A stretch of DNA of 28,580 nucleotides, from positions 1-28,580 of the IMG/VR virus record IMGVR_UViG_3300012204_000072. The stretch is one strand, 5' to 3'. The DNA is from a virus. The notes beneath the pieces were generated by a model, which worked only from the letters and a program-made list of their open reading frames with translations, had not been told where the DNA came from and ran no database searches. A program made the position numbers and the translations under genes. Below are positions 62 to 26,694 of this stretch, piece after piece. How positions within the stretch are numbered: the first letter of the stretch is position 1; each line of letters starts with the position of its first letter.

Positions 62-144
62 CGCCCACGCCCCCCGCCCAGCACCATGAAAACAGACGAC
101 AAGCTGAAGTAGATGACCCCAGTCAGCAGAAACAGAAACGTCAC
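58..144 (-). CDS. 28-aa single-span membrane microprotein
   Basis: A 28-codon frame starts with GTG at 144, overlapping the TGA of the ATPase gene (GTGA), and stops at 58, overlapping the next gene in the same way. The product is almost entirely hydrophobic (TFLFLLTGVIYFSLSSVFMV) and ends in a short Gly/Arg tail, so it should form one transmembrane helix with a basic end on one side. The double 4-nt coupling is the main evidence that it is translated. No function can be assigned. It resembles in design the other short membrane ORFs at 2859, 3179 and 3913. Confidence 0.55.
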   Translation of the reverse strand: MTFLFLLTGVIYFSLSSVFMVLGGGRGR

Positions 145-956
145 AGTGCCCATACCAGCTCCTTCTGTGCCTTCAACTCATGGATTTGACAAGTGGTAAA
201 ATCGGCGGCCATCCTGACCGGCGCCTGCGCCAAAGGATCCTGAGGCCCGAACCGGTTCTTCACCGCAGCCACAAACATCTCCCCGTCATTCGACGCCATC
301 GTCAAAATCAGAGACGGCAACTGACTAACCTTCCCCTGAATTGCGCTCCTCGGAGGAGCGCTCACAATCTCCTCACGGTTCTGCTCCGACGTATGGTGCA
401 ACACCAACACGCATGCCTTGGATTTTCTGGCCATGTAGTGCAGGTCCTTGCACGCCTGCCGCATCGCCTCAAACTCGTTACCAACCTCAACCTTGAGGTT
501 CATCAGATTGTCGACAACAATCAGGCCAGGCGGAGCTGATTCGATTTCCACCCACGCTTCCAGCGCGTTAGCAACATCCGCAATGGACGGCTCGCTAGGA
601 TCAAAAACAAAACGGACAGGCAGCCGGCCCACTTGACTACCGTATTCTTCCGCGAAAAGGCCATAACTGATCGTCTCCATAATCGACCCGACAGGATGCC
701 CGGTCACGGCAGCCGCCGTACGGGCAGCCATCGTGTCCTCATCAGAATCCGCAGAGACGTACAACGTGGGCACACCCATGCGAACCACAGCCACAACAGC
801 CGTATTGGTTTTACCAGCCCCCGGAGGTCCGGCCAACATCGCCAACTGGCCCCGCCTAAACTTCACCTTGTACCTACTGGTGGCCAGGCTCGGGAAAGGG
901 TCCGGAAGTTCAGCCGCTACACGCCCCCTGGCAGCCCGAAGGATAGGCACCGGCAC
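141..956 (-). CDS. RecA/DnaB-superfamily P-loop ATPase (RepA/AAA_25-like)
   Basis: A 271-aa ATPase. Walker A is GPPGAGKT (residues 43-50); Walker B is LIVVDN with the acidic residue at D149. A VLVLHHTSE segment (about 183-191) fits the sensor strand of RecA/DnaB-type cores, and the conserved VKNRFGP near residue 233 is typical of RepA/AAA_25-like phage ATPases. Phage members act as recombinase-like or helicase-like motors on DNA. The start is GTG at 956, two bases after the TAA of the upstream gene; an ATG at 958 is out of frame. It lies in a minus-strand operon with a Cas4-like nuclease, a pairing expected for phage recombination or replication. Whether it loads on single-stranded DNA or unwinds duplex cannot be told from sequence. 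Confidence 0.82.
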   Translation of the reverse strand: MPVPILRAARGRVAAELPDPFPSLATSRYKVKFRRGQLAMLAGPPGAGKTNTAVVAVVRMGVPTLYVSADSDEDTMAARTAAAVTGHPVGSIMETISYGLFAEEYGSQVGRLPVRFVFDPSEPSIADVANALEAWVEIESAPPGLIVVDNLMNLKVEVGNEFEAMRQACKDLHYMARKSKACVLVLHHTSEQNREEIVSAPPRSAIQGKVSQLPSLILTMASNDGEMFVAAVKNRFGPQDPLAQAPVRMAADFTTCQIHELKAQKELVWAL

Positions 957-958
957 AT

Positions 959-1357
959 TTAGCTACCCTTCTTCACATACTGGGGCTTGCAGCGGCGTGG
1001 GTTGTCCTTGGCCAGCGGGCAGAAGTGGCCCGCGTAGTCTGGCTTCTCGATGTATTTCATGGCGCCGTGAGAAACCCAGCCGCCGTTCTCCTGATGCCCG
1101 CACGTCCGGGGGGAGCTGTCGCCACTCTGCCCCGGGCTGTTGACTACGGTCGTGCCGGGCATGGCTTGGGCAATGGTTTGAACCACCCCCAGGGCCTCGC
1201 AGGCGGCCGCAATGTCCGGACCCTTACCCACCAGACCAGACAGCAGATATTCCAGCTCGTCAGCGTCCCTGGCCCGCACATTCGTCATACACGACTGGCC
1301 GGGGCCGTGCTTGATGGACACCTGCATTTTGTAATCGAGCACCGCAGCATCGGTCAT
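959..1357 (-). CDS. Conserved phage protein with C-terminal Cys/His cluster
   Basis: A 132-aa protein between the nuclease and the ATPase, starting with ATG at 1357 in an ATGA overlap with the nuclease C-part. The N-terminal two thirds (DADELEYLLSGLVGKGPDIAAACEALG) look helical. The C-terminal third carries Cys and His residues in the order CGHQ, H, HFCP, C within about residues 86-124, the layout of a small zinc-binding fold. Similar proteins, as I recall them, sit beside exonuclease and RecA-like genes in other actinophages, so a nucleic-acid-binding accessory role is plausible. I cannot name a family with certainty. Confidence 0.6.
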   Translation of the reverse strand: MTDAAVLDYKMQVSIKHGPGQSCMTNVRARDADELEYLLSGLVGKGPDIAAACEALGVVQTIAQAMPGTTVVNSPGQSGDSSPRTCGHQENGGWVSHGAMKYIEKPDYAGHFCPLAKDNPRRCKPQYVKKGS

Positions 1358-2025
1358 GACTCACCCTCATAATCTGGATCCATGTGTTGCATGCGGCCCC
1401 CGTAGGCCGCACAAAACTGGTTGAACGGGCACGCCTTGCAGCGGAACGTCACATGCGGCAGGTAGATTTGATGCTCGCGGGCAACGTCGAACCGGGTAAA
1501 CCACTTCTCCAACAGTTCCGGCTTGTACCGTCGCAGGTTCAGCATTTCCGATGGCCGGCCAGTGCGGGCCATCCAGTAGCAGCCAAACCTGACGTCCAGC
1601 CCGTGCTGTTTCATCAAACCAACCCGGTAAAACCCGAGCTGCATGTCCGACTCTGGCGACCTGGCCCCCGTCTTCAAATCGAGAATCACCGGTTCGTTAA
1701 TTTCCGGGACCACCATTACCCGGTCGACGTATCCCCGTAGTGGTATTCCGCCCACATCGACCGAGATTTCAACCTCAATGGCCGGTGTTCCCCCGCCCAG
1801 GTCCAAAACCCGCCAGCCTGAACGCTTCCGCCAATCGATCCACGACTGAACCATTTTGGGCCCGTTGGCGCGCCACCAGCCACCGTCCTCGCCCTGCGGT
1901 AGGGAGGCTTTGCGGCCACGGCCGGCAGCCGACCATTCTCTAGTCTTGGGGTGTTCTTCTACCTGCTCCAGCACTTCCGCCTCGAAGTGTTTGAGGAACA
2001 GGTCGGTTGCGGTTTGGGTGGTCAC
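1354..2025 (-). CDS. Cas4/RecB-like PD-(D/E)XK nuclease, C-terminal catalytic part
   Basis: A 223-aa polypeptide carrying the catalytic half of a Cas4/AddB/RecB-type exonuclease. Visible motifs are GYVDR (D101), VILDLKTG (D116-x-K118) and MQLGFY (Q129-x3-Y133), the DEK plus QxxxY signature. CKACPFNQFC (C196, C199, C205) gives the three clustered cysteines of a 4Fe-4S site. The family's N-terminal segment, with the first Cys and the GxxxH motif, is missing here but is present in the separate ORF at 2438-2644. Start is GTG at 2025, in a GTGA overlap with the intervening gene, so it is translationally coupled to it. The natural reading is one nuclease made of two chains, although a decayed gene is possible. 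Confidence 0.8.
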   Translation of the reverse strand: MTTQTATDLFLKHFEAEVLEQVEEHPKTREWSAAGRGRKASLPQGEDGGWWRANGPKMVQSWIDWRKRSGWRVLDLGGGTPAIEVEISVDVGGIPLRGYVDRVMVVPEINEPVILDLKTGARSPESDMQLGFYRVGLMKQHGLDVRFGCYWMARTGRPSEMLNLRRYKPELLEKWFTRFDVAREHQIYLPHVTFRCKACPFNQFCAAYGGRMQHMDPDYEGES

Positions 2026-2363
2026 TGGCGGAGTCCCGGAAAATCGCCCAGATCGAACCGTTGCGTGAAGGCTTTAATGTTTGGGGGCGCCAGGCCGCAG
2101 CAATCGTAGGCGTCAACGTCAACACCCAAGTCCTCCACCACCCACCACGCGCTGCCACCGAGGCGGAAAAAATACCGGTCAGACGGGCAGACAAGGCGTA
2201 CATACCTGGCCACCGGGCATCCCCGGGAATGTCCGGGGATGCCCTTGATCCCCATGGTTCCCAGATGATCGGCGATAGCTTCGGCACTACCCAAATCGTT
2301 AAGGGTTTTTAGGGCGGCCTTACAGCGGCCGGCGTATTCTTCCAGGGTTTCGGGCACAGTCAT
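2022..2363 (-). CDS. Conserved hypothetical protein interrupting the nuclease gene
   Basis: A 113-aa protein with a helical N-terminus (TLEEYAGRCKAALKTLNDLG), a helix-turn-like stretch SAEAIADHLGTMGI, and a GHSRGCPVARYVR segment with a conserved-looking Cys. Proteins of this type occur as free-standing small genes in actinobacterial phages and plasmids; the function is unknown. It sits exactly between the two halves of the Cas4-like nuclease and overlaps the C-terminal half by 4 nt. ATG at 2363 has a G-run directly against it; GTG at 2357 would give a better spacing from that GGGGG, so the start is uncertain by two codons. Confidence 0.65.
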   Translation of the reverse strand: MTVPETLEEYAGRCKAALKTLNDLGSAEAIADHLGTMGIKGIPGHSRGCPVARYVRLVCPSDRYFFRLGGSAWWVVEDLGVDVDAYDCCGLAPPNIKAFTQRFDLGDFPGLRQ

Positions 2364-2437
2364 CCCCCGATACTGTTTTTGGGAAAAAGCTCACCGGTCC
2401 CGGAGGACGGCAGGGAGCAAAGGGCCAAAGCCGAGGA

Positions 2438-2644
2438 CTAAACCCCGGCGGTCGCGAAGAGGCCGCGATCATGTTCCTCGCTGGCTGCGTGTGCGGCATG
2501 TCCGCCGATGTTCCACCAGGCGGGTTTTTCCGGAAGGCCAAGGATTCTTTTGAGCTGGTAGGCTTTGCCGCATGCTAGCCACTCTTTGAGAGCCGAGTAC
2601 GAGACGTGCGGCTTGGTGGCTTCGATAGCAACGGGGTCAGACAT
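2438..2644 (-). CDS. Cas4/RecB-like nuclease, N-terminal part
   Basis: A 68-aa ORF that reads as the isolated N-terminal segment of a PD-(D/E)XK nuclease. HVSYSALKEWLACGKAYQLK (residues 13-32) is the opening helix with the family Cys (C25) that normally joins a distal C-x2-C-x5-C to hold a 4Fe-4S cluster. GGHAAHAASE (47-56) is the GxxxH motif. It ends at TAG just where the homologous helix should continue. The missing catalytic part is encoded at 1354-2025. The start was set at ATG 2644 because GGAGGCGGAG lies just upstream; a longer frame to 2728 lacks this support. It is the first gene of the leftward operon. Confidence 0.7.
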   Translation of the reverse strand: MSDPVAIEATKPHVSYSALKEWLACGKAYQLKRILGLPEKPAWWNIGGHAAHAASEEHDRGLFATAGV

Positions 2645-2858
2645 AGCTCCGCCTCCGGATAGCCCTACTTGGGTTTTCCACCGGATGCGGCCCGGTGTTG
2701 CCGACTCATCAAGTTTGGGCCATGTCAAGGGGCCATGTGGACGGTTTGGCTAGACTGTGACACAGATCACATGTGCCAAAGTTGCGTCTTCGCCCGGCGG
2801 CTAGTGATAGAACCTAAGGTCAAGTGATCCCCGCCACCCGGAGAGGCAGCTTGAACGC
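2645..2858. promoter_or_regulatory. Divergent intergenic control region
   Basis: A 214-bp gap between the leftward nuclease operon and the rightward early genes, so promoters for both should lie here. On the minus strand a perfect TTGACA occurs (complement at 2723-2728), but no convincing -10 hexamer follows at 16-18 bp. The plus strand has no clear hexamer pair that I can defend. The main feature is the CRP-like palindrome at 2756-2771, flanked by TTTGGC and GCCAAA. Confidence 0.4.
2756..2771. promoter_or_regulatory. CRP/FNR-type palindrome, site 1
   Basis: TGTGACACAGATCACA matches the TGTGA-N6-TCACA consensus of Crp-family regulators exactly at all ten fixed positions. It lies about 110 bp upstream of the leftward operon start and 90 bp upstream of the rightward microprotein gene, flanked by an outer TTTGGC/GCCAAA repeat. 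Actinobacterial Crp/GlxR proteins bind this type of site. Binding by a host regulator is inferred. Confidence 0.5.
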
Positions 2859-4896: not shown

Positions 4897-5147
4897 CCAC
4901 CAGACTAGAATGCCACACGTGCGCGGCCCTCCACGCCCGACTCTACCAAGACAAGACGCTGAAATCGCTGAAGAACAGACTAGCCAAGGTAGCTGTCGAT
5001 CGGGGGATGACGAAGAACCAAACCGTTATCAGCTACCTGCGTGGATGGCATCACAGGGGACACCGACCCACATTCGGGCAGCACCAGGAGTATCTAAATG
5101 GGGATGATCAACGATTGGGAGAGGCAGGCCAAGTGCCGCGACAGTGA
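4893..5147 (+). CDS. Small CxxC protein overlapping WhiB
   Basis: An 84-aa protein starting in an ATGA overlap. The N-terminus has LECHTCAALH (Cys at 7 and 10, His at 14), a possible half zinc site, then a basic helix (KTLKSLKNRLAKVAVDRG). Its 3' end overlaps the whiB gene by 50 nt in another frame, so the last 17 residues may not be constrained. A competing frame at 4889-5107 has poorer composition and lacks the coupled start. Function unknown. Confidence 0.55.
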   Translation: MTTRLECHTCAALHARLYQDKTLKSLKNRLAKVAVDRGMTKNQTVISYLRGWHHRGHRPTFGQHQEYLNGDDQRLGEAGQVPRQ

Positions 5148-5391
5148 CCCAGAGGAGCTATACGTCCCGGGCCACAAGCAGAACGACGCCAAACGCATCT
5201 GTAAGGGATGCCCAGTTCGGGCGGAATGCCTCGCCACCGCGCTAGACCGAGACGAAGAATTTGGTGTGTGGGGAGGCCAGACAGAACGCGAACGACGCGC
5301 AATGATCAAAAAGAACCCCAACGTCTCAAGCTGGTGGCAAATGTTTGAGGCAGCCCTATCGGCACAACGCGTTAGCCCCGGACTTGCATAA
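5098..5391 (+). CDS. WhiB-family Fe-S transcriptional regulator
   Basis: A 97-aa WhiB-like protein. Cysteines C13, C35, C38 and C44 give the C-Xn-C-X2-C-X5-C ligand set of the 4Fe-4S cluster, and GVWGG (56-60) followed by the basic QTERERR is the family turn and DNA-contacting tail. WhiB proteins act with the primary sigma factor (region 4) to change promoter choice; phage members such as mycobacteriophage TM4 WhiB interfere with host WhiB2 functions and superinfection. Start is ATG 5098 with GGAG 7 nt upstream. Its stop codon lies in the loop of a hairpin terminator. It probably controls phage early or lysogenic genes, or host genes; the target is not visible. Confidence 0.93.
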   Translation: MGMINDWERQAKCRDSDPEELYVPGHKQNDAKRICKGCPVRAECLATALDRDEEFGVWGGQTERERRAMIKKNPNVSSWWQMFEAALSAQRVSPGLA

Positions 5392-6490: not shown

Positions 6491-6491
6491 G

Positions 6492-6500
6492 TGCTATACT
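6492..6500 (+). promoter_or_regulatory. Extended -10 promoter candidate for the integrase
   Basis: TGCTATACT gives an extended TGn motif and a -10 hexamer (TATACT) with five of six consensus bases. The 17-bp-spaced -35 (TTATAG, 6472-6477) is weak, as extended -10 promoters allow. Transcription would begin near 6507, giving a leader of about 53 nt before ATG 6560. A second extended -10-like element TGTTATAGA lies at 6470-6478. Confidence 0.45.
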
Positions 6501-6559
6501 CAGACATGCTACCCCGCTGGCCAGGGCAGGCCAAACCATCCCGCCAGGAGGTAACGATC

Positions 6560-7747
6560 ATGAACCGGGCATCAGACAGCCCCACTGTCTACGACGCCAC
6601 ACGAACATTCCTCGACTACTGCACCGACCGGGGGCTGACCCGGCAAACCGTCGTGGACAAGAAGCGAACCCTAGACGCCCTGGTCAGGGCGGCCGGTGGC
6701 GACTGGCCAGTGACAGGACTAACCCGACAGCACTTCAACAAGGCAATGGACATTCTCAAGACCGGAGACAACCCGGAAGAGGCCAAGGCCCGCCGCCTGC
6801 TGAACCTGCCCGTCAGGAAAGCGCGGAGACTGGCGTCCCTTTCCATCGACAAGGGCACACTGAAGCAGTTTGCGTTGTACTGCCGGATTGAGGAATGGGT
6901 GGCGGCGAACTTCCTCCCGTTTATCGACATCGTTTCCTCATCCAAAACCCATGCCGACAACAACGGTCAGAGCACGGTCCGCGCCAAGCGGTCCGTGCCT
7001 GAGACTGATTGGTTCAAGCTACTTGAAGCCGCCAGTCAACAGCACGCGAGGGCCAGGGCCGCTGTCGCCTTGGCCATGTACACAGGTCGGCGGATTTCCG
7101 AGCTTGTGACTATGACGTGGGGCCAGTTTGATCTGACAGACGGTTCCTATTGGTACATCGCCAAGAAGGTTGGCAAGCGTCAACAGTTCGTGCTGGACCT
7201 GTCGGGGCTGGAGGAGCTGCAACGCTGGCACCAGTGGATGACCGACAACTACGGGCCGCCCCGGCCGGCCGATCCTGTGTTGCCGAAGAAGTTGGATCCC
7301 CGTGAGCCGTGGCCGGACAATGACATCAGGTATCGGGCGCATGCCGGGGAGTCGCAAGCTTGGCCTCTGGTACCGGACCAGTTCTGCAACCGTCACGCGA
7401 TCCTGAGGGATATCAAAATTGCCCTGAGGGCTATCGGCTGGGAAGATGCGGAGCTGGAGGGTGAGGGCGGTCACACGCTGCGCAGGGCCCATGGCCGGGT
7501 AGTGAACGCAAAGAAGGGCCTGGCGGCAGCTCAGCACTCCCTGGGGCACTCCAAGATGGCCACAACTGAGGGCTACCTGGACACGACGGAGGAGCGGGAA
7601 CGCAGCGCGACCGGGTTCAGGGGTCAGAGGGTGTTCACGTCTGGCCAGCCGGTTGAGCAGGAGCCTCGGGTGGATGAAGTGGCGGAGCCGGCAGCCGAGG
7701 CAACCAACATTGTCGATATGCAGGCGTGGAGGCGCAAGGCCATGTAA
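6560..7747 (+). CDS. int: Tyrosine-family site-specific integrase
   Basis: A 395-aa tyrosine recombinase that inserts and excises the phage genome at att sites. The catalytic set is visible: R178 in TGRRISEL, a beta-hairpin Lys near 206-207 (KKVGKRQQ), H305 and R308 in GGHTLRRAHG, H330 in LGHSKM, and the nucleophile Y339 in TEGYLD. The N-terminal half holds the SAM-like core-binding domain. AGGAGG 9 nt upstream fixes ATG 6560; the frame extends further 5' to 6491 without ribosome site support. The C-terminal tail after residue 345 is variable, as is usual. It lies between two hairpin-rich regions, and the RNA locus follows directly. Full length, apparently functional. Confidence 0.95.
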   Translation: MNRASDSPTVYDATRTFLDYCTDRGLTRQTVVDKKRTLDALVRAAGGDWPVTGLTRQHFNKAMDILKTGDNPEEAKARRLLNLPVRKARRLASLSIDKGTLKQFALYCRIEEWVAANFLPFIDIVSSSKTHADNNGQSTVRAKRSVPETDWFKLLEAASQQHARARAAVALAMYTGRRISELVTMTWGQFDLTDGSYWYIAKKVGKRQQFVLDLSGLEELQRWHQWMTDNYGPPRPADPVLPKKLDPREPWPDNDIRYRAHAGESQAWPLVPDQFCNRHAILRDIKIALRAIGWEDAELEGEGGHTLRRAHGRVVNAKKGLAAAQHSLGHSKMATTEGYLDTTEERERSATGFRGQRVFTSGQPVEQEPRVDEVAEPAAEATNIVDMQAWRRKAM

Positions 7748-8187: not shown

Positions 8188-8291
8188 CCCCCCGTAGCCC
8201 AACTGGTAGAGGCGGCCGCCTTAAAAGCGGAACAAGACCCCATCAGGTTTCGACACCCGGGGTTGTGTCGGTTCAAATCCGACCGGGGGGA
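8188..8291 (+). tRNA. tRNA-Leu(UAA) with a very long variable arm
   Basis: Acceptor CCCCCCG (8188-8194) / CGGGGGG (8284-8290), discriminator A. The D-arm has a 3-bp stem GCC/GGC and the GG of the D-loop. Anticodon arm GCCGC-CTTAAAA-GCGGA has four pairs plus a G-A closure; anticodon UAA (8222-8224). T-arm is GTCGG-TTCAAAT-CCGAC (8267-8283). This is a class II tRNA, as leucine requires, but the variable region (8232-8266) is 35 nt, well above the usual 11-24. It folds as ACAA/TTGT and CCCC/GGGG with a GA bulge. UUA codons are rare in high-GC Actinobacteria, so a phage-borne copy could matter for translation. Confidence 0.78.
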
Positions 8292-16605: not shown

Positions 16606-16675
16606 GGCAGGTGGGGGACTCGAACCCCAAACTCCAGGTTATGAGCCTGGTGTGATACCGTTTCACTACACCTGC
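16606..16675 (-). tRNA. tRNA-Met(CAU)
   Basis: On the minus strand: acceptor GCAGGTG / CACCTGC (7 bp), U8-A9, D-arm GTGA-AACGGTA-TCAC, anticodon arm CCAGG-CTCATAA-CCTGG with anticodon CAU (complement at 16641-16643), and T-arm GGGG-TTCGAGT-CCCC with only four pairs. The T-stem is one pair short in this register; an alternative register gives five with a mismatch in the acceptor. CAU could be elongator Met or, if modified to lysidine, Ile. It sits between the 277-aa gene and the scaffold gene in the late operon, so it is probably cut out of the late mRNA. Confidence 0.85.
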
Positions 16676-20865: not shown

Positions 20866-23800
20866 TCAGGCGGCCTTAAGAGTGGCGTCATTCGACAACC
20901 ACCGGTCATACAGGGCGGCAAAACCAAGGTTGCTGTCCTTGAGCCCGAACACAAAGCTGTTCCATTGCCGCTGCAACGGGGCCGCCTTCTTGCTGCTCAA
21001 GTCCTTGTAGCCGTACGAATCCATGTACGATTTGAAACCGTCCCGGGCATCCAGGTAGTCAATAAGGCCGCGAATATCGTCGCGGCCTTGAAGTCTGGTG
21101 TCCTGAACAATCTGCCGCATCTGACCAAGCCGGGACTCGATCTTTGACGAATCCGTGGTTGAATAGTCCTTAAACCAGGGCGAGATTTGAACGGCACCAT
21201 ACGGGTCGGTCCAATACTGGTGCTCCTGAAGCCACTGGGATTTAGCTGCCACCAAATCCTTGGCCCCCTTCTGCTGCAAACTGGTCAAACCCCGATCCAC
21301 CATATCCGCATGAATAGCGTCAGACAGTTGACCAAACTCAATCCAGCCCTGCCGACGCTGGGTATCGGCAATAGCCTGCTCCAGAGGCACAAGTTCCCGC
21401 TGATTCTTGCCTGAGCCGTACCGCAACGGAGTTGCCTTCTGCGCCTCATACACGGCCTTGTTGAAAACGCCCGCACCCTCCGAACCCTCAATGAGCGAGG
21501 CCAGATCGGGGAACTGCTCCATCAAATCGGCGTACTTCTTGTACGCCTGATCGGACTGAAGTGTCGCCGGAATACCCAAAGCGTTCTTGGTGACCGAAGT
21601 GGTCAGCCAAAAAAACTCGGGACCCATCGTGTTATAGAACTCTTCATCGGCCGAAGGGTCCCCCGGTTTACGGGGCTTACCCGCCAGCATATGGTAGTAG
21701 TCGACATACGGCTGATAGGGGCTGGTGAATTGGGCGGTTGAGCCCGCCCACCTAGACAAGAACCTGAGCCCCGCAATCTGCGCAGCCTTGCTCCTGGCCT
21801 CCTCAAAGGTGGGGGCGGCGCCCCGCTTACCCTGCGAAAAGTTGGTCATCTCCGTGGCGTAGATAGCCATCGCATAGTTTTCCGACTGCTGCGTGTCCCT
21901 CTCAAACAGCCAGTTATCCCACAAGTCTTTCCAGTTACGAACATTCCCCGGCACAGCCGAAAGGGCGCTGTTACTGCTCGGGCCGAAAGGCAAAATGAAC
22001 GTTTGAACAAACTTGTTAGACGCAAACTCGGGATGCGACAGGGCAAACTTGTTAGCCGGAATGGCCACCATCGGGCCGAACGTCGGCATGTCCAGGAACG
22101 TTTGCAGGTTACCCTTGTTGATGGTGATGTTCATCCGGGCGCCGTCAATGGTGGGCGTCCCAACAGGCAGGCGAAACACGATGTTCTTGCCGCTGGGCCG
22201 GTAGTTGTCAGGCAGGTCGGTTCGCTTGCCGGTTTGTGGGTCAAGCGTATACCAGCGTTCCTGCCCGTTCCGGATTTCCAGATGGGCGCCTTCGTTGTCC
22301 TGAACCATCCCGGCCCTATCGGGGGCAGACCACACAGCCCACACCCCACCGGCGCGGAACGGATTCTCCCGAAAAACAACACCCCACTTGGCCGCGCTGT
22401 CATACAAGGCCGAACCAAACGGCACCGCCAACCGCAAACCCTTAGCCAAATCAGACTGAGCCATCGAGTCATACAAGTACTTGCGCACATCCACAAGGGC
22501 CCGCTCGTGAGCCAGCCGCTCAACAGCATCCACATCGCTTTGGGTGAAAGCCTCACCCTTGGCCCACAGCCCACGTGACGCCACAAGCTGATCCCGGTAG
22601 TAGTTGAACCGGTCAGCCGCAAACGGATACCTAGCAAAATGGTCCAGCGGCATGTCAGAAATCTTGGAGAAAATCCCGTTAGTCCACTGCCGAATCTTTG
22701 CGCCGAAATATCCGCCACCCGTGGCGAAATCCAGAGAAGCCCCATGAACCTGCGGCATCGACGCCCGGTCCACAACCTGCTCCAAATCGGCAAACCTCAC
22801 CGAACCATCCAGGGTCTTACGCCTCAACTCGGCCGAAGCCGCCTGGCGGTCCACATTCACCGGAAGATACGTGTCGACCATCCCCGCCACTTGGGCAATA
22901 TGATTATAGTAGTCGCCAACGTAAGGGCCGAGCTGGGCCTGATAGGCCCGCCCGGCGTCCGTGTTATGCATCCAGGCCACAACATCGTTCATCGACTTGC
23001 CGCGCAAAAACTGCTGCGCCGCCCGGTCTGCCCCCAACTGCATAGCCGCCCGCTCCCAGGACGTTTCATAGCCCTTCATACTCGCGTCGACGTTTTGCCA
23101 CTGCTGACCGGACATCGCCATCAACCTGGCATGGTTGCGGTTAGAAACCCGATCCATCCAAGCGTCCGAGGTGCCCTTAGAAGAAACCTGCTTACGGAAA
23201 CGGTCACCATACTGGCCCTCAAACGCGCCCAAGACGTGAATGTAGTCATCTTCACCAGGCCCAGTGCGGATATCGTGACCAATCAGACCGGACGCCCGCA
23301 ACGGGCGTCCCTTCGTCTGCCCCCAATTAACATTCAACCGTTGACCCGAACCGGGCTTGAGGGCGTCCAAAACCTCATCACCCTTATACCGGGCCACCGA
23401 CAACGCCAAATTGCCATCAGGTTGAATGTAGGCGTGCAACAGGCGGGACGGCATCAACAGCTCGTCGGCATTAGCGTGGATAAACTGGTAGACGTCATCG
23501 AACCGCGAGAGATCTGCCGGGATCCTGGTCGTTGAACCAATGGTGAAGTGGGCGCCCGATGTGGCAACCGGTTCAACGCTCACCGGGGCTGTCGTGGTAG
23601 ACAGCGGCGGCTCCATGGCCGGAGCCGCCGGCTCAACGGCTGGAGCCGCCGGGGTTACCTGCCTGGGTTTGGCGCCGCTGGGGTAAACAACCCGTTCGAC
23701 TGCCTCATAGTCAAGCCTTCGGCCGGTAGAAAACTCGGTAATGGCGCGGCTAAAGTTGGCCTTAGTGGGCCGACCCGGGACGGTTATCCCGCCTTCACGA

Positions 23801-26694
23801 AGGCTCGCGGCAACCGTTTTGAGCTGGGCGACGGTCAGGCCCGCGAGGGCGGCCGTGGCTTCCTGCCGGGATCCGGCTTGACCAAGGTTTGCTATCGCCT
23901 GGGCAATCGGGTCAGAAGCTTCGGGAACGGCCGGTTTAAGGGTGGCGGCCGGGGGAACGGGTTTGGGTACGGAAATCTTGGGCGAAGCACCGGAGAAGGG
24001 GTCGACAAGGATCGGGCTTCCGGGCACACCCTGAGGCTTGTTTTTCCGTTCATCTATGGCTGTTTGGATCAGCGACTGCTGCCAGGCCGTTGACTGGTAG
24101 ACATCGCGGCCAGCATTAGACAGGGCCTCGTCGATGGCGTGTTTTTGAAGCTCGCCCTTGGATAGCCTACCGGACCGGTAGGCGTCATGAAGGGCCTGGT
24201 ATGCCTCGGGAAGAGTGCCCACCCCGCCGTGATCAAACAGCCGGCCAATGAACGCATCAACGGAAACCACACCATCAGCCAGGGCATGATCATAGGACTG
24301 ATAGCCTTTAGCCCCGAACGAATAGCCGCTGACCGCCGGATCAACCCCCGACTTTTGAAGCTCAGACCCGGCCGCTGGGGCTCGGTCGTCTACCTTCGCA
24401 ACCAAACCGGGCCGCTGACCACGCATAGCCAAACGGCCAGCCTTTTCCCGAGCCACCGCGTCACGAACAGCCTGGGGTGCGAGAACACCCCGGTTGATCA
24501 TGTTCCAGAAAGCATTCTTGGCCCCCTCGGTGGCGGCAGCCGCCACCCGATGGGACCCCATGACAGCCAGAGGCCCCCCAATTTCGTCAGAGTAAGTGCG
24601 CCAAATGTAGCCGGGACGCATGATGGCCGAGACTTTCCAAACCCCAATCACCAGCTCCGCCAGAGCCGTCGCAGCCTCTTTCGACTTCCAAATACCGTTT
24701 CCTAGGGGGCCCTTGTTTTTCCACCACAAGGCCGAATCGAGGGCGCCCCAGTCCTGCAAAATGTGGTTGTCCTCAAACTGCGACAACAGCGCCGGGGCAT
24801 TACCGGTCCCGGCTGTGGTTTGGTCCAAGGGAATGAGCGCAAGATTACCATCCTGATCGGGTAGACCGATGTGGCCATTAGGGTAGCTACCACGTTGAAC
24901 AGCCGCATCCAAGTCGTCAGCCAGCCCGGTAAGCGCCCGAGCCCGGTCGTCCAACCCCTGAACCGCATACTTCTGCGACAACCTACGAGCCTGATCCGAC
25001 AAGAAAACCCTGTTGTTACGAACAAACTGGCGATTGTAGGAACGGAACTGGTTGAGGTCCGACAAGAAGCTGTCTGTGATAGCCGCCGGGTCGATACCGT
25101 GAGCTGTCGCGTGAACCTTCAGAGCCGCATTCTCCGCATTACTCACTACGTTGAAACGGGAAGCTGCCGTAGACGCCCTAGCATATTGGGAAAGGAACTG
25201 GTCAACCTGATCGGCCGGCATACGAGACTGCAAAAGGTTGTTACGAAACACCCGCAACGAATCGGGGTTGTTCAGGTCCAGCATGCGCCCGCCACGGGAA
25301 GACGGAAGCAACGTCCGCACCATACTAGACACCGTGTAGTTGGAAAAAGGCAGAACCTTCCAATCACCCATGGCCGTGGTGGCGCCGTAGTTCAGGAACT
25401 GGTTGACCCCCACCCGCCACGTGCTCGACAAACGCAGCCTCGGAACCGCCTGGCCAGTCAGCAAACCACCAGCCTTGACACCCTCACCCAGCCGGCCATA
25501 GATACCATGGTCGGTGGCCATCGCATCAACAAACGCTTCCGTTTTGGTTTCCGCCACCGACTTCGCGGCATCATCCAAAACCTGATTACCAACACCATAA
25601 TTCTTGGCGGTCTGGCTGATGCTGTAGTTGGCGACCTTACTACCAACCGTGTCGGCAATGCGCGGAGCCTGCTTAGTCAGATCACCCCAAGCCTCGGCAT
25701 CCCCATACAAGGCCCGCCACGTCAAATTGTACAAATCAGGGTCGTTACGGGTGTCGAAAAGCAAGGCGGCCATGACGCCGCCATTGGTGTGGTTGTTGAA
25801 CAACGTTTTGCGGACCTGTTCCTCAGACTTTGCGTTACGAACAAAATCCGCAGTACGTTGAAAGGTTGCCGCCGACGTGAACTTTTGCCAATTGCCATCG
25901 CCGGTTAGTAGCTTGCTGGTTGCTGCCGCACCCATCTGCCCAGACCAGTATTTCAACTTACCGGCACGAGCTACCGCACCCACACCCCGGGTAGGATCAG
26001 CGATAAGCGTCACCATCGCATCCAAGCCGCCCGAGCTGGCCTTAAGAGCGAAATTGTCTTCGTACTGCTTCCGGCCCTTATCCGTCCGCGGATCCAAACC
26101 CTGGGCGCCCCGGGCCAGAAAACCAAGCCCCCACGGATCCATGCGCTTCCTAAACGCCGCATACTGCCCAGGATCCTGCGGGTTGTAGTCTGAACCCAAA
26201 GCACGGTCAAGCCACTGGCCAGCCGACACAGCCGAAAACATGTGAGCCTGACCGGCACTCACATACCGGGTGTCGTCATATGCCTGGCGCCACGTATCGC
26301 CCCGGAAAAAGTTGCTGAAGCCCTTGTTGAACGAATCGGCCAGGGTCAGGTCAAGCGTCCCAAATGGACGCTTGACCATCTCGTTAGTAGCCCACAGCGA
26401 CGTTTGGCCAATTTGACGGACAACCGGAATCTGCCCGATCCCGCCAAGGACGTGACCAGCCCCCGAAAAGATCTGCCCAACCCCATCCGAAAGACTCTTA
26501 CGGTCCTGCTGCGCCTGGAAAGTGTCACCCAACAGATTCATTGGGGTCATGGCAATATTCCACGCCGCACCTGCGGTTTTCATAAAACCCTGGGTTGCGG
26601 CCTTCGCCCCCTGGTCCCACACGCTCTTCCACAGATCAGACCAGTTAGTGTGCCAATTAGACCAGGTACTAGCGAGACCGTCAAAGAAACCCAT
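20866..26694 (-). CDS. Giant (1942-aa) internal virion/ejection-type protein
   Basis: The largest gene. The N-terminus has aromatic amphipathic helices (FFDGLASTWSNWHTNWSDLW) and a Gly-rich hydrophobic stretch (GQIFSGAGHVLGGIGQIPVV) that could insert in a membrane. Residues about 150-850 and 1150-1942 are helical. A Pro/Ala linker region (about 905-1060) encloses a SAP/HeH-like unit (LTVAQLKTVAASLREGGITV then PGRPTK). The region 1330-1480 has FKLPFG-like segments such as LRLAVPFGSALYDSAAKWGV. I see no polymerase, protease or glycosidase motif I would defend. Size, position and amphipathicity resemble internal ejection proteins of short-tailed phages. ATG 26694 is three bases from the previous stop. 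Confidence 0.65.
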   Translation of the reverse strand: MGFFDGLASTWSNWHTNWSDLWKSVWDQGAKAATQGFMKTAGAAWNIAMTPMNLLGDTFQAQQDRKSLSDGVGQIFSGAGHVLGGIGQIPVVRQIGQTSLWATNEMVKRPFGTLDLTLADSFNKGFSNFFRGDTWRQAYDDTRYVSAGQAHMFSAVSAGQWLDRALGSDYNPQDPGQYAAFRKRMDPWGLGFLARGAQGLDPRTDKGRKQYEDNFALKASSGGLDAMVTLIADPTRGVGAVARAGKLKYWSGQMGAAATSKLLTGDGNWQKFTSAATFQRTADFVRNAKSEEQVRKTLFNNHTNGGVMAALLFDTRNDPDLYNLTWRALYGDAEAWGDLTKQAPRIADTVGSKVANYSISQTAKNYGVGNQVLDDAAKSVAETKTEAFVDAMATDHGIYGRLGEGVKAGGLLTGQAVPRLRLSSTWRVGVNQFLNYGATTAMGDWKVLPFSNYTVSSMVRTLLPSSRGGRMLDLNNPDSLRVFRNNLLQSRMPADQVDQFLSQYARASTAASRFNVVSNAENAALKVHATAHGIDPAAITDSFLSDLNQFRSYNRQFVRNNRVFLSDQARRLSQKYAVQGLDDRARALTGLADDLDAAVQRGSYPNGHIGLPDQDGNLALIPLDQTTAGTGNAPALLSQFEDNHILQDWGALDSALWWKNKGPLGNGIWKSKEAATALAELVIGVWKVSAIMRPGYIWRTYSDEIGGPLAVMGSHRVAAAATEGAKNAFWNMINRGVLAPQAVRDAVAREKAGRLAMRGQRPGLVAKVDDRAPAAGSELQKSGVDPAVSGYSFGAKGYQSYDHALADGVVSVDAFIGRLFDHGGVGTLPEAYQALHDAYRSGRLSKGELQKHAIDEALSNAGRDVYQSTAWQQSLIQTAIDERKNKPQGVPGSPILVDPFSGASPKISVPKPVPPAATLKPAVPEASDPIAQAIANLGQAGSRQEATAALAGLTVAQLKTVAASLREGGITVPGRPTKANFSRAITEFSTGRRLDYEAVERVVYPSGAKPRQVTPAAPAVEPAAPAMEPPLSTTTAPVSVEPVATSGAHFTIGSTTRIPADLSRFDDVYQFIHANADELLMPSRLLHAYIQPDGNLALSVARYKGDEVLDALKPGSGQRLNVNWGQTKGRPLRASGLIGHDIRTGPGEDDYIHVLGAFEGQYGDRFRKQVSSKGTSDAWMDRVSNRNHARLMAMSGQQWQNVDASMKGYETSWERAAMQLGADRAAQQFLRGKSMNDVVAWMHNTDAGRAYQAQLGPYVGDYYNHIAQVAGMVDTYLPVNVDRQAASAELRRKTLDGSVRFADLEQVVDRASMPQVHGASLDFATGGGYFGAKIRQWTNGIFSKISDMPLDHFARYPFAADRFNYYRDQLVASRGLWAKGEAFTQSDVDAVERLAHERALVDVRKYLYDSMAQSDLAKGLRLAVPFGSALYDSAAKWGVVFRENPFRAGGVWAVWSAPDRAGMVQDNEGAHLEIRNGQERWYTLDPQTGKRTDLPDNYRPSGKNIVFRLPVGTPTIDGARMNITINKGNLQTFLDMPTFGPMVAIPANKFALSHPEFASNKFVQTFILPFGPSSNSALSAVPGNVRNWKDLWDNWLFERDTQQSENYAMAIYATEMTNFSQGKRGAAPTFEEARSKAAQIAGLRFLSRWAGSTAQFTSPYQPYVDYYHMLAGKPRKPGDPSADEEFYNTMGPEFFWLTTSVTKNALGIPATLQSDQAYKKYADLMEQFPDLASLIEGSEGAGVFNKAVYEAQKATPLRYGSGKNQRELVPLEQAIADTQRRQGWIEFGQLSDAIHADMVDRGLTSLQQKGAKDLVAAKSQWLQEHQYWTDPYGAVQISPWFKDYSTTDSSKIESRLGQMRQIVQDTRLQGRDDIRGLIDYLDARDGFKSYMDSYGYKDLSSKKAAPLQRQWNSFVFGLKDSNLGFAALYDRWLSNDATLKAA

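Follow-up and report, generated by a model that had tools for sequence, protein, structure and literature searches.

Nucleases of the Fe-S "iron staple" type are important for recombination, for the replication of phages and for CRISPR adaptation, and those compared here hold the active site and the cluster in one chain. In crystallised Cas4 the cluster is bound by four cysteines, one from the N-terminal and three from the C-terminal part, and a conserved histidine has been proposed to bind the metal; the H80A mutant of SSO1391 is inactive, whereas changes of Cas4 cysteines abolish the cluster and not always the activity, and the mutants disagree on the cluster (PMC4176176). AdnA, AddB, Dna2 and ACE1 also carry their Fe-S nuclease domain in one polypeptide, with a helicase fused to it in the first three. 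In the Cas4-like group of the family PF12705, proteins of mycobacterial and Propionibacterium phages form a large clade (PMC5704561). The actinophage exonucleases of this kind (PF12705/phrog_1870), such as gp62 of mycobacteriophage Bxb1, gp37 of Propionibacterium phage Pacnes 2012-15 and the exonuclease of Cutibacterium phage CA1NRNZ, are encoded by one gene and consist of one chain.

The DNA analysed here (the window) is an IMG/VR virus record of 28,580 bases. It contains a WhiB gene, a gene of the phage integrase family and phage structural and lysis genes, and the virus therefore likely has an actinobacterial host. Next to a DnaB-like helicase gene we find a nuclease of the same kind which is encoded by two genes with a third gene in between:

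141..956, minus strand: DnaB-like helicase, conserved neighbour of the nuclease (phrog_243, E 7e-56)
959..1357, minus strand: 132-aa conserved neighbour of unknown function, overlapping the end of the C chain gene
1354..2025, minus strand: C chain, 223 aa, PD-(D/E)XK core with D101, D116-x-K118, Q129-xxx-Y133 and C196/C199/C205
2022..2025, minus strand: GTGA stop/start overlap leading from the 113-aa gene to the C chain (from the sequence)
2022..2363, minus strand: inserted 113-aa gene of no known family with a coding signature, a later arrival between the nuclease genes
2364..2437, minus strand: 74-nt spacer from the stop of the N chain to the 113-aa ORF, missing in the two closest relatives
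2438..2644, minus strand: N chain, 68 aa, helical cap with C25 and the motif I histidine (G47-G48-xxx-H52)
2652..2656, minus strand: GGAGG, Shine-Dalgarno-like, 5' of the N chain ATG (from the sequence)
5098-5391, plus strand: WhiB-like transcription factor gene, an actinophage marker (PF02467, E 4e-24)
6491-7747: integrase gene

A sequence-only reading of this DNA had taken the 68-aa and the catalytic ORF for two parts of one Cas4/RecB-like exonuclease. The residues on which it relied are all found where it had placed them, C25 and GxxxH (48-52) on the short ORF and the acidic, lysine, glutamine, tyrosine and cysteine residues on the catalytic one, and the three ORFs indeed follow each other in order with the second and third joined by GTGA. 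The RecB motifs are thus complete over two chains, with H52 on the N chain and D101, D116, K118, Q129 and Y133 on the C chain, and the four cysteines are divided as had been noticed, C25 on the N chain and C196, C199 and C205 on the C chain, so that the iron-staple pattern of one N-terminal and three C-terminal cysteines is present across the pair. The single-chain PF12705 relatives carry these motifs in one polypeptide; their distribution over two ORFs is a feature of the variant described here. The codon-position G+C of all three ORFs (about 0.63/0.48/0.68) has the signature of the other genes of the phage.

A comparison with full-length exonucleases had been suggested, and both halves turned out to match successive parts of the same profiles. 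In phrog_1870 (313 positions) the N half corresponds to positions 13-68 (E 2e-5) and the C half to 78-293 (E 3e-43), and in PF12705 (247 positions) they correspond to 1-50 and 69-246. As the halves match consecutive and non-overlapping parts of one profile, the split is more than chance. The C chain of the window scores 42.8 bits against PF12705 PDDEXK_1 (E 8e-11), above the curated cut-off of 22 bits, and the N chain alone is slightly under it with 19.7 bits (E 9e-4); the N chain also matches phrog_69 (E 7e-10). By these profile matches the nuclease is a member of the PF12705 Cas4-like group. The name Cas4, as used in the earlier reading, holds in this wider sense only: the RecB motifs, the one plus three cysteines and the fold are those of CRISPR Cas4 (TIGR00372, PF01930), but CRISPR Cas4 is one chain, and the nuclease here stays below the curated cut-offs for Cas4 proper, with 29.5 bits against 65 needed for TIGR00372 and 20.8 against 22.7 for PF01930. 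The single-chain exonucleases of Bxb1, Pacnes 2012-15 and CA1NRNZ share the motifs and four cysteines with the window and are about 30-34% identical to its C chain, and in the Cutibacterium and Propionibacterium phages a DnaB-like helicase lies downstream of the exonuclease as in the window. Relatives of the 132-aa neighbour were recognised by eye 3' of the nuclease in Planktophila phage F5 and in the two closest relatives of the window.

Among the relatives in the phage collection, those of mycobacteriophages and Cutibacterium phages included, one-gene forms predominate. The lowest E-value, however, was obtained with the Planktophila phages LanE43AprE7 and LanE43AprF5 (OX376640, OX376641), and here the nuclease is split where that of the window is. 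An N ORF of 61 aa runs into the C ORF, which is read in another frame, and no gene lies in between, in contrast to the 113-aa gene of the window. These are phages of Ca. Nanopelagicales; their records carry no annotation and the paper describing them does not mention an exonuclease (PMC10202952). Single-sequence scans of viral contigs with the C chain of the window or with the 113-aa protein gave no match, and alignment queries were needed. We therefore queried IMG/VR with alignments of C chains and of N chains and classified 234 loci, 193 split (155 distinct sequences, the two cultivated Planktophila phages included) and 41 fused, numbers which are not population frequencies because N chains from split genes made up part of the queries. 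The same split in related phages, as the earlier reading had proposed to look for, is thus found many times, in viruses of actinobacteria. For every C chain with enough upstream sequence an N chain was found, and contigs ending near the C chain still show the tail of an N chain. The N chains of the split genes have 61-72 aa and all splits break at one and the same loop. Our scan of bacterial and archaeal genome contigs returned no relative, which leaves a prophage form unseen rather than excluded. The open-access literature gave us no account of a split Cas4-like nuclease, most subscription papers being outside this search.

The junction between the chains is highly variable. Among the 155 distinct split sequences the genes overlap in 133, abut in 6 and are separated by an insert of at least 73 nt in 16. 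All three frame relations occur (frames 0, 1 and 2 at 15, 128 and 50 of the 193 loci), and the N chain ends with TAA, TGA or TAG. A start codon stands at the beginning of the C chain in 155 of 155 sequences (ATG 132, GTG 14, TTG 9), and a Shine-Dalgarno-like motif precedes it in 145 of them as compared to 37% of random positions, a contrast that is only descriptive as the sequences are related. Within a single group of 29 sequences with at least 85% identity the junction ranges from overlap to gaps of 73 and 83 nt. In the window the C chain starts 413 nt past the stop of the N chain and the two ORFs are in different frames.

These data bear on the possibility that a programmed frameshift or stop read-through yields one protein in the relatives and that the interrupted copy of the window is a broken version of it. 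In the clade of the Planktophila phages the C ORF always overlaps the N ORF slightly and has a frame of +1 relative to it, and in L164, one of the two closest relatives, and in the L131 group both chains share a frame interrupted by a single stop, as such a mechanism would have it. Over the whole set, however, the frame relation is not constant, no common slippery sequence was apparent in the 18 junctions viewed, inserts arise inside otherwise near-identical groups, and the window retains every key residue. Two independently translated genes account for the varied frames, stops, starts and gaps, which a programmed frameshift does not, and we rejected frameshifting or read-through as a general explanation; that it nevertheless underlies the arrangement seems quite improbable to us.

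The closest relatives of the window, the viral contigs L244 (IMG/VR 3300049794_000002) and L164 (IMG/VR 3300037760_000081), are split at the same place and help to order the events. The C chain of L244 is 68% identical to that of the window, and its counterpart of the GTGA overlap is a TGATG which links the N chain directly to the C chain. In L164 three bases separate the two chains, and the N chain ends with LFATIGV-stop as compared to LFATAGV-stop in the window. The 113-aa protein was sought in both records and is absent. Since both relatives are split without an insert, in the lineage of the window the split came first and the 113-aa gene later, and the idea that the inserted gene had made the split is refuted. 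The same comparison speaks against decay, that is, an insertion which destroyed the nuclease gene of the window and left two remnants. The absence of the 113-aa gene from the two nearest relatives would fit this, but these are two genes even without it, and in the window the N chain has kept its stop context and its Shine-Dalgarno-like GGAGG and both chains have kept all key residues. We regard decay as very unlikely.

A removable intron or intein interrupting a single gene is the least probable of the alternatives, and we give it practically no credence. A coding stretch does separate the two halves of one protein, yet no Rfam intron family was found in the window at the gathering threshold, nor around the junction at E up to 1, where there were only sub-threshold chance matches, and the relatives have no element at this site and are still two genes. 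A simple intein is excluded because each of the three ORFs has a frame of its own, and the exonuclease domain accounts for the whole of the N chain, which likewise argues against an intein.

The space between the chains is occupied by at least seven unrelated small ORFs in different groups:

113 aa: window
117-119 aa, SLT transglycosylase-like: L143 group (L143 2945-3298; L144 338-694; L147 and L149 3588-3947)
77-84 aa: L158 group
62 aa, acidic: L124 and L175 groups
about 54 aa: L235
35 aa, zinc-ribbon-like: L180 group
26 aa: L202

The SLT transglycosylase-like insert (AggPromo_Cterm, NCBIfam) overlaps both nuclease genes, an odd site for a cell-wall enzyme. The 113-aa protein has no family match in Pfam, PHROGs or NCBIfam, and its comparison with phages gave nothing convincing (best E 0.2). 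The sequence-only reading had considered it as a possible third partner of the nuclease. Its GTGA coupling to the C chain and its coding signature would fit a working subunit of a three-component enzyme; against this, the gene is absent in L244 and L164 and other groups have unrelated proteins at the same spot, such as the SLT transglycosylase-like and zinc-ribbon-like ORFs. The claim is therefore left without support: as the split predates the 113-aa gene, the nuclease probably does not need the inserted protein as a partner, and we consider a three-component enzyme hardly probable. As other groups hold unrelated proteins there, the site between the chains rather suggests a tolerated landing place for small genes.

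For an analysis of conservation we used 36 split representatives with less than 85% identity. C25, G47, G48, H52, E56 and D59 on the N chain and E84, D101, D116, K118, Q129, Y133, C196, C199 and C205 on the C chain are invariant in all 36. The N chain has a median within-group dN/dS of about 0.05 and the C chain one of about 0.1, and judged by these ratios both chains are under purifying selection in the split clade. For the copy of the window the evidence of selection is weaker than for the clade, since the values for the window against L164 (0.21 for the N chain, 0.40 for the C chain) were obtained at a dS of about 1.3, near saturation. With 155 distinct splits, retained key residues and purifying selection on both chains, the earlier view that the set is maintained rather than decayed is borne out. 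As far as sequence comparison reaches, we have two genes with a common break point which keep the catalytic residues and the four cysteines across the chains.

In trees built from the joined sequences, four to five changes are needed to explain the split state. A single split origin for all sequences is rejected (AU p 1e-5 and 6e-6), while the window pair and the large aquatic clade as one group are not rejected (p 0.32). One group of L135, L246, L247, L254 and L184 is disfavoured (p 0.012), this grouping having been chosen once the tree was known. Repeated splits of the gene at one site and renewed fusion of split pairs would both account for this; the wider family is fused, which would favour repeated splitting. 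L246, L247, L257, L135, L254, L255 and L184 are separate split lineages outside the large aquatic clade; the C chain lineages L135, L254 and L184 are known from one or few contigs.

It had been proposed to ask by structure modelling whether the two pieces can form the nuclease core. As the chains of L164 share a frame, reading the TGA as a residue gives a continuous chain (N-W-P-C), which scores 56.6 bits against PF12705. Its AlphaFold2 model (80 sequences) is confident (pLDDT 92.3, pTM 0.88), and the lone deep dip of the pLDDT, to 57, is found at residues 61-70, which are the junction between the helices 38-60 and 73-90. The model has the fold of complete Fe-S nuclease domains: residues 1-278 match the nuclease domain of AdnA with a Z of 16.5 (3.2-3.3 A over 224-228 residues), followed by ACE1 (15.9), AddB (15.2), Dna2 (13.5) and Cas4 (12.5 to 7.7). 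The C chain of the window predicted alone has a pLDDT of 87.3, which drops at 21-50 and again near the cysteine-rich end, and reaches a Z of 9.3 against AdnA and 7.5 against ACE1; the difference to the joined model is a consistency check and no measurement because the compared proteins differ. With the chains tethered and taken from a relative of the window, the model speaks for the compatibility of the two pieces and not for the association of free chains.

Taken together, we think it probable that the locus encodes an obligate two-chain Cas4-like nuclease of the PF12705 group, whose separately translated polypeptides assemble into one enzyme. From the two-subunit enzyme of the sequence-only reading the two maintained chains that share the metal and cysteine residues find support, while assembly and activity are inferred. 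The N chain, a helical cap which by homology to Cas4 would supply the motif I histidine and the first cysteine, would dock onto the C chain with the catalytic core and the last three cysteines, and only the pair would possess a complete metal site and four-cysteine Fe-S site. The break presumably sits in a flexible loop between the last helix of the N chain and the first helix of the C chain. Coupled translation via the overlapping stop and start could keep both chains in step, and the 113-aa gene as a later arrival may have borrowed this coupling. Going by the annotation of the one-chain relatives, the enzyme could be an exonuclease that serves the replication or recombination of the phage alongside the DnaB-like helicase. 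More speculatively, and in our opinion rather unlikely, the N chain might be a dissociable activation subunit, with the nuclease switched on only when the chains close the shared Fe-S cluster and metal site. If true, this would let the phage control a DNA-degrading enzyme through its assembly or redox state, and it would explain the repeated appearance of the split state in the tree.

In the two-gene form a separate small chain carries the histidine of the active site together with one of the predicted cluster cysteines, and adding or withholding this chain would probe the roles of the N-terminal cap and of the Fe-S cluster. This is open to experiment as two cultivated phages have the two-gene form. 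In annotation, the halves would be named as a truncated exonuclease and a hypothetical protein.

Some other features of the window were observed. Directly 3' of the integrase gene Rfam reports a tRNA at 8188-8291 on the plus strand (49.7 bits over 104 bases), for which, unlike Rfam, ARAGORN gives no call; an attachment site and an interrupted tRNA are both conceivable here. A tRNA-Met (CAT) gene lies among the structural genes (16606-16675, minus strand), and a lone ORF of 1942 aa (20866-26694, minus strand) takes up a fifth of the contig.
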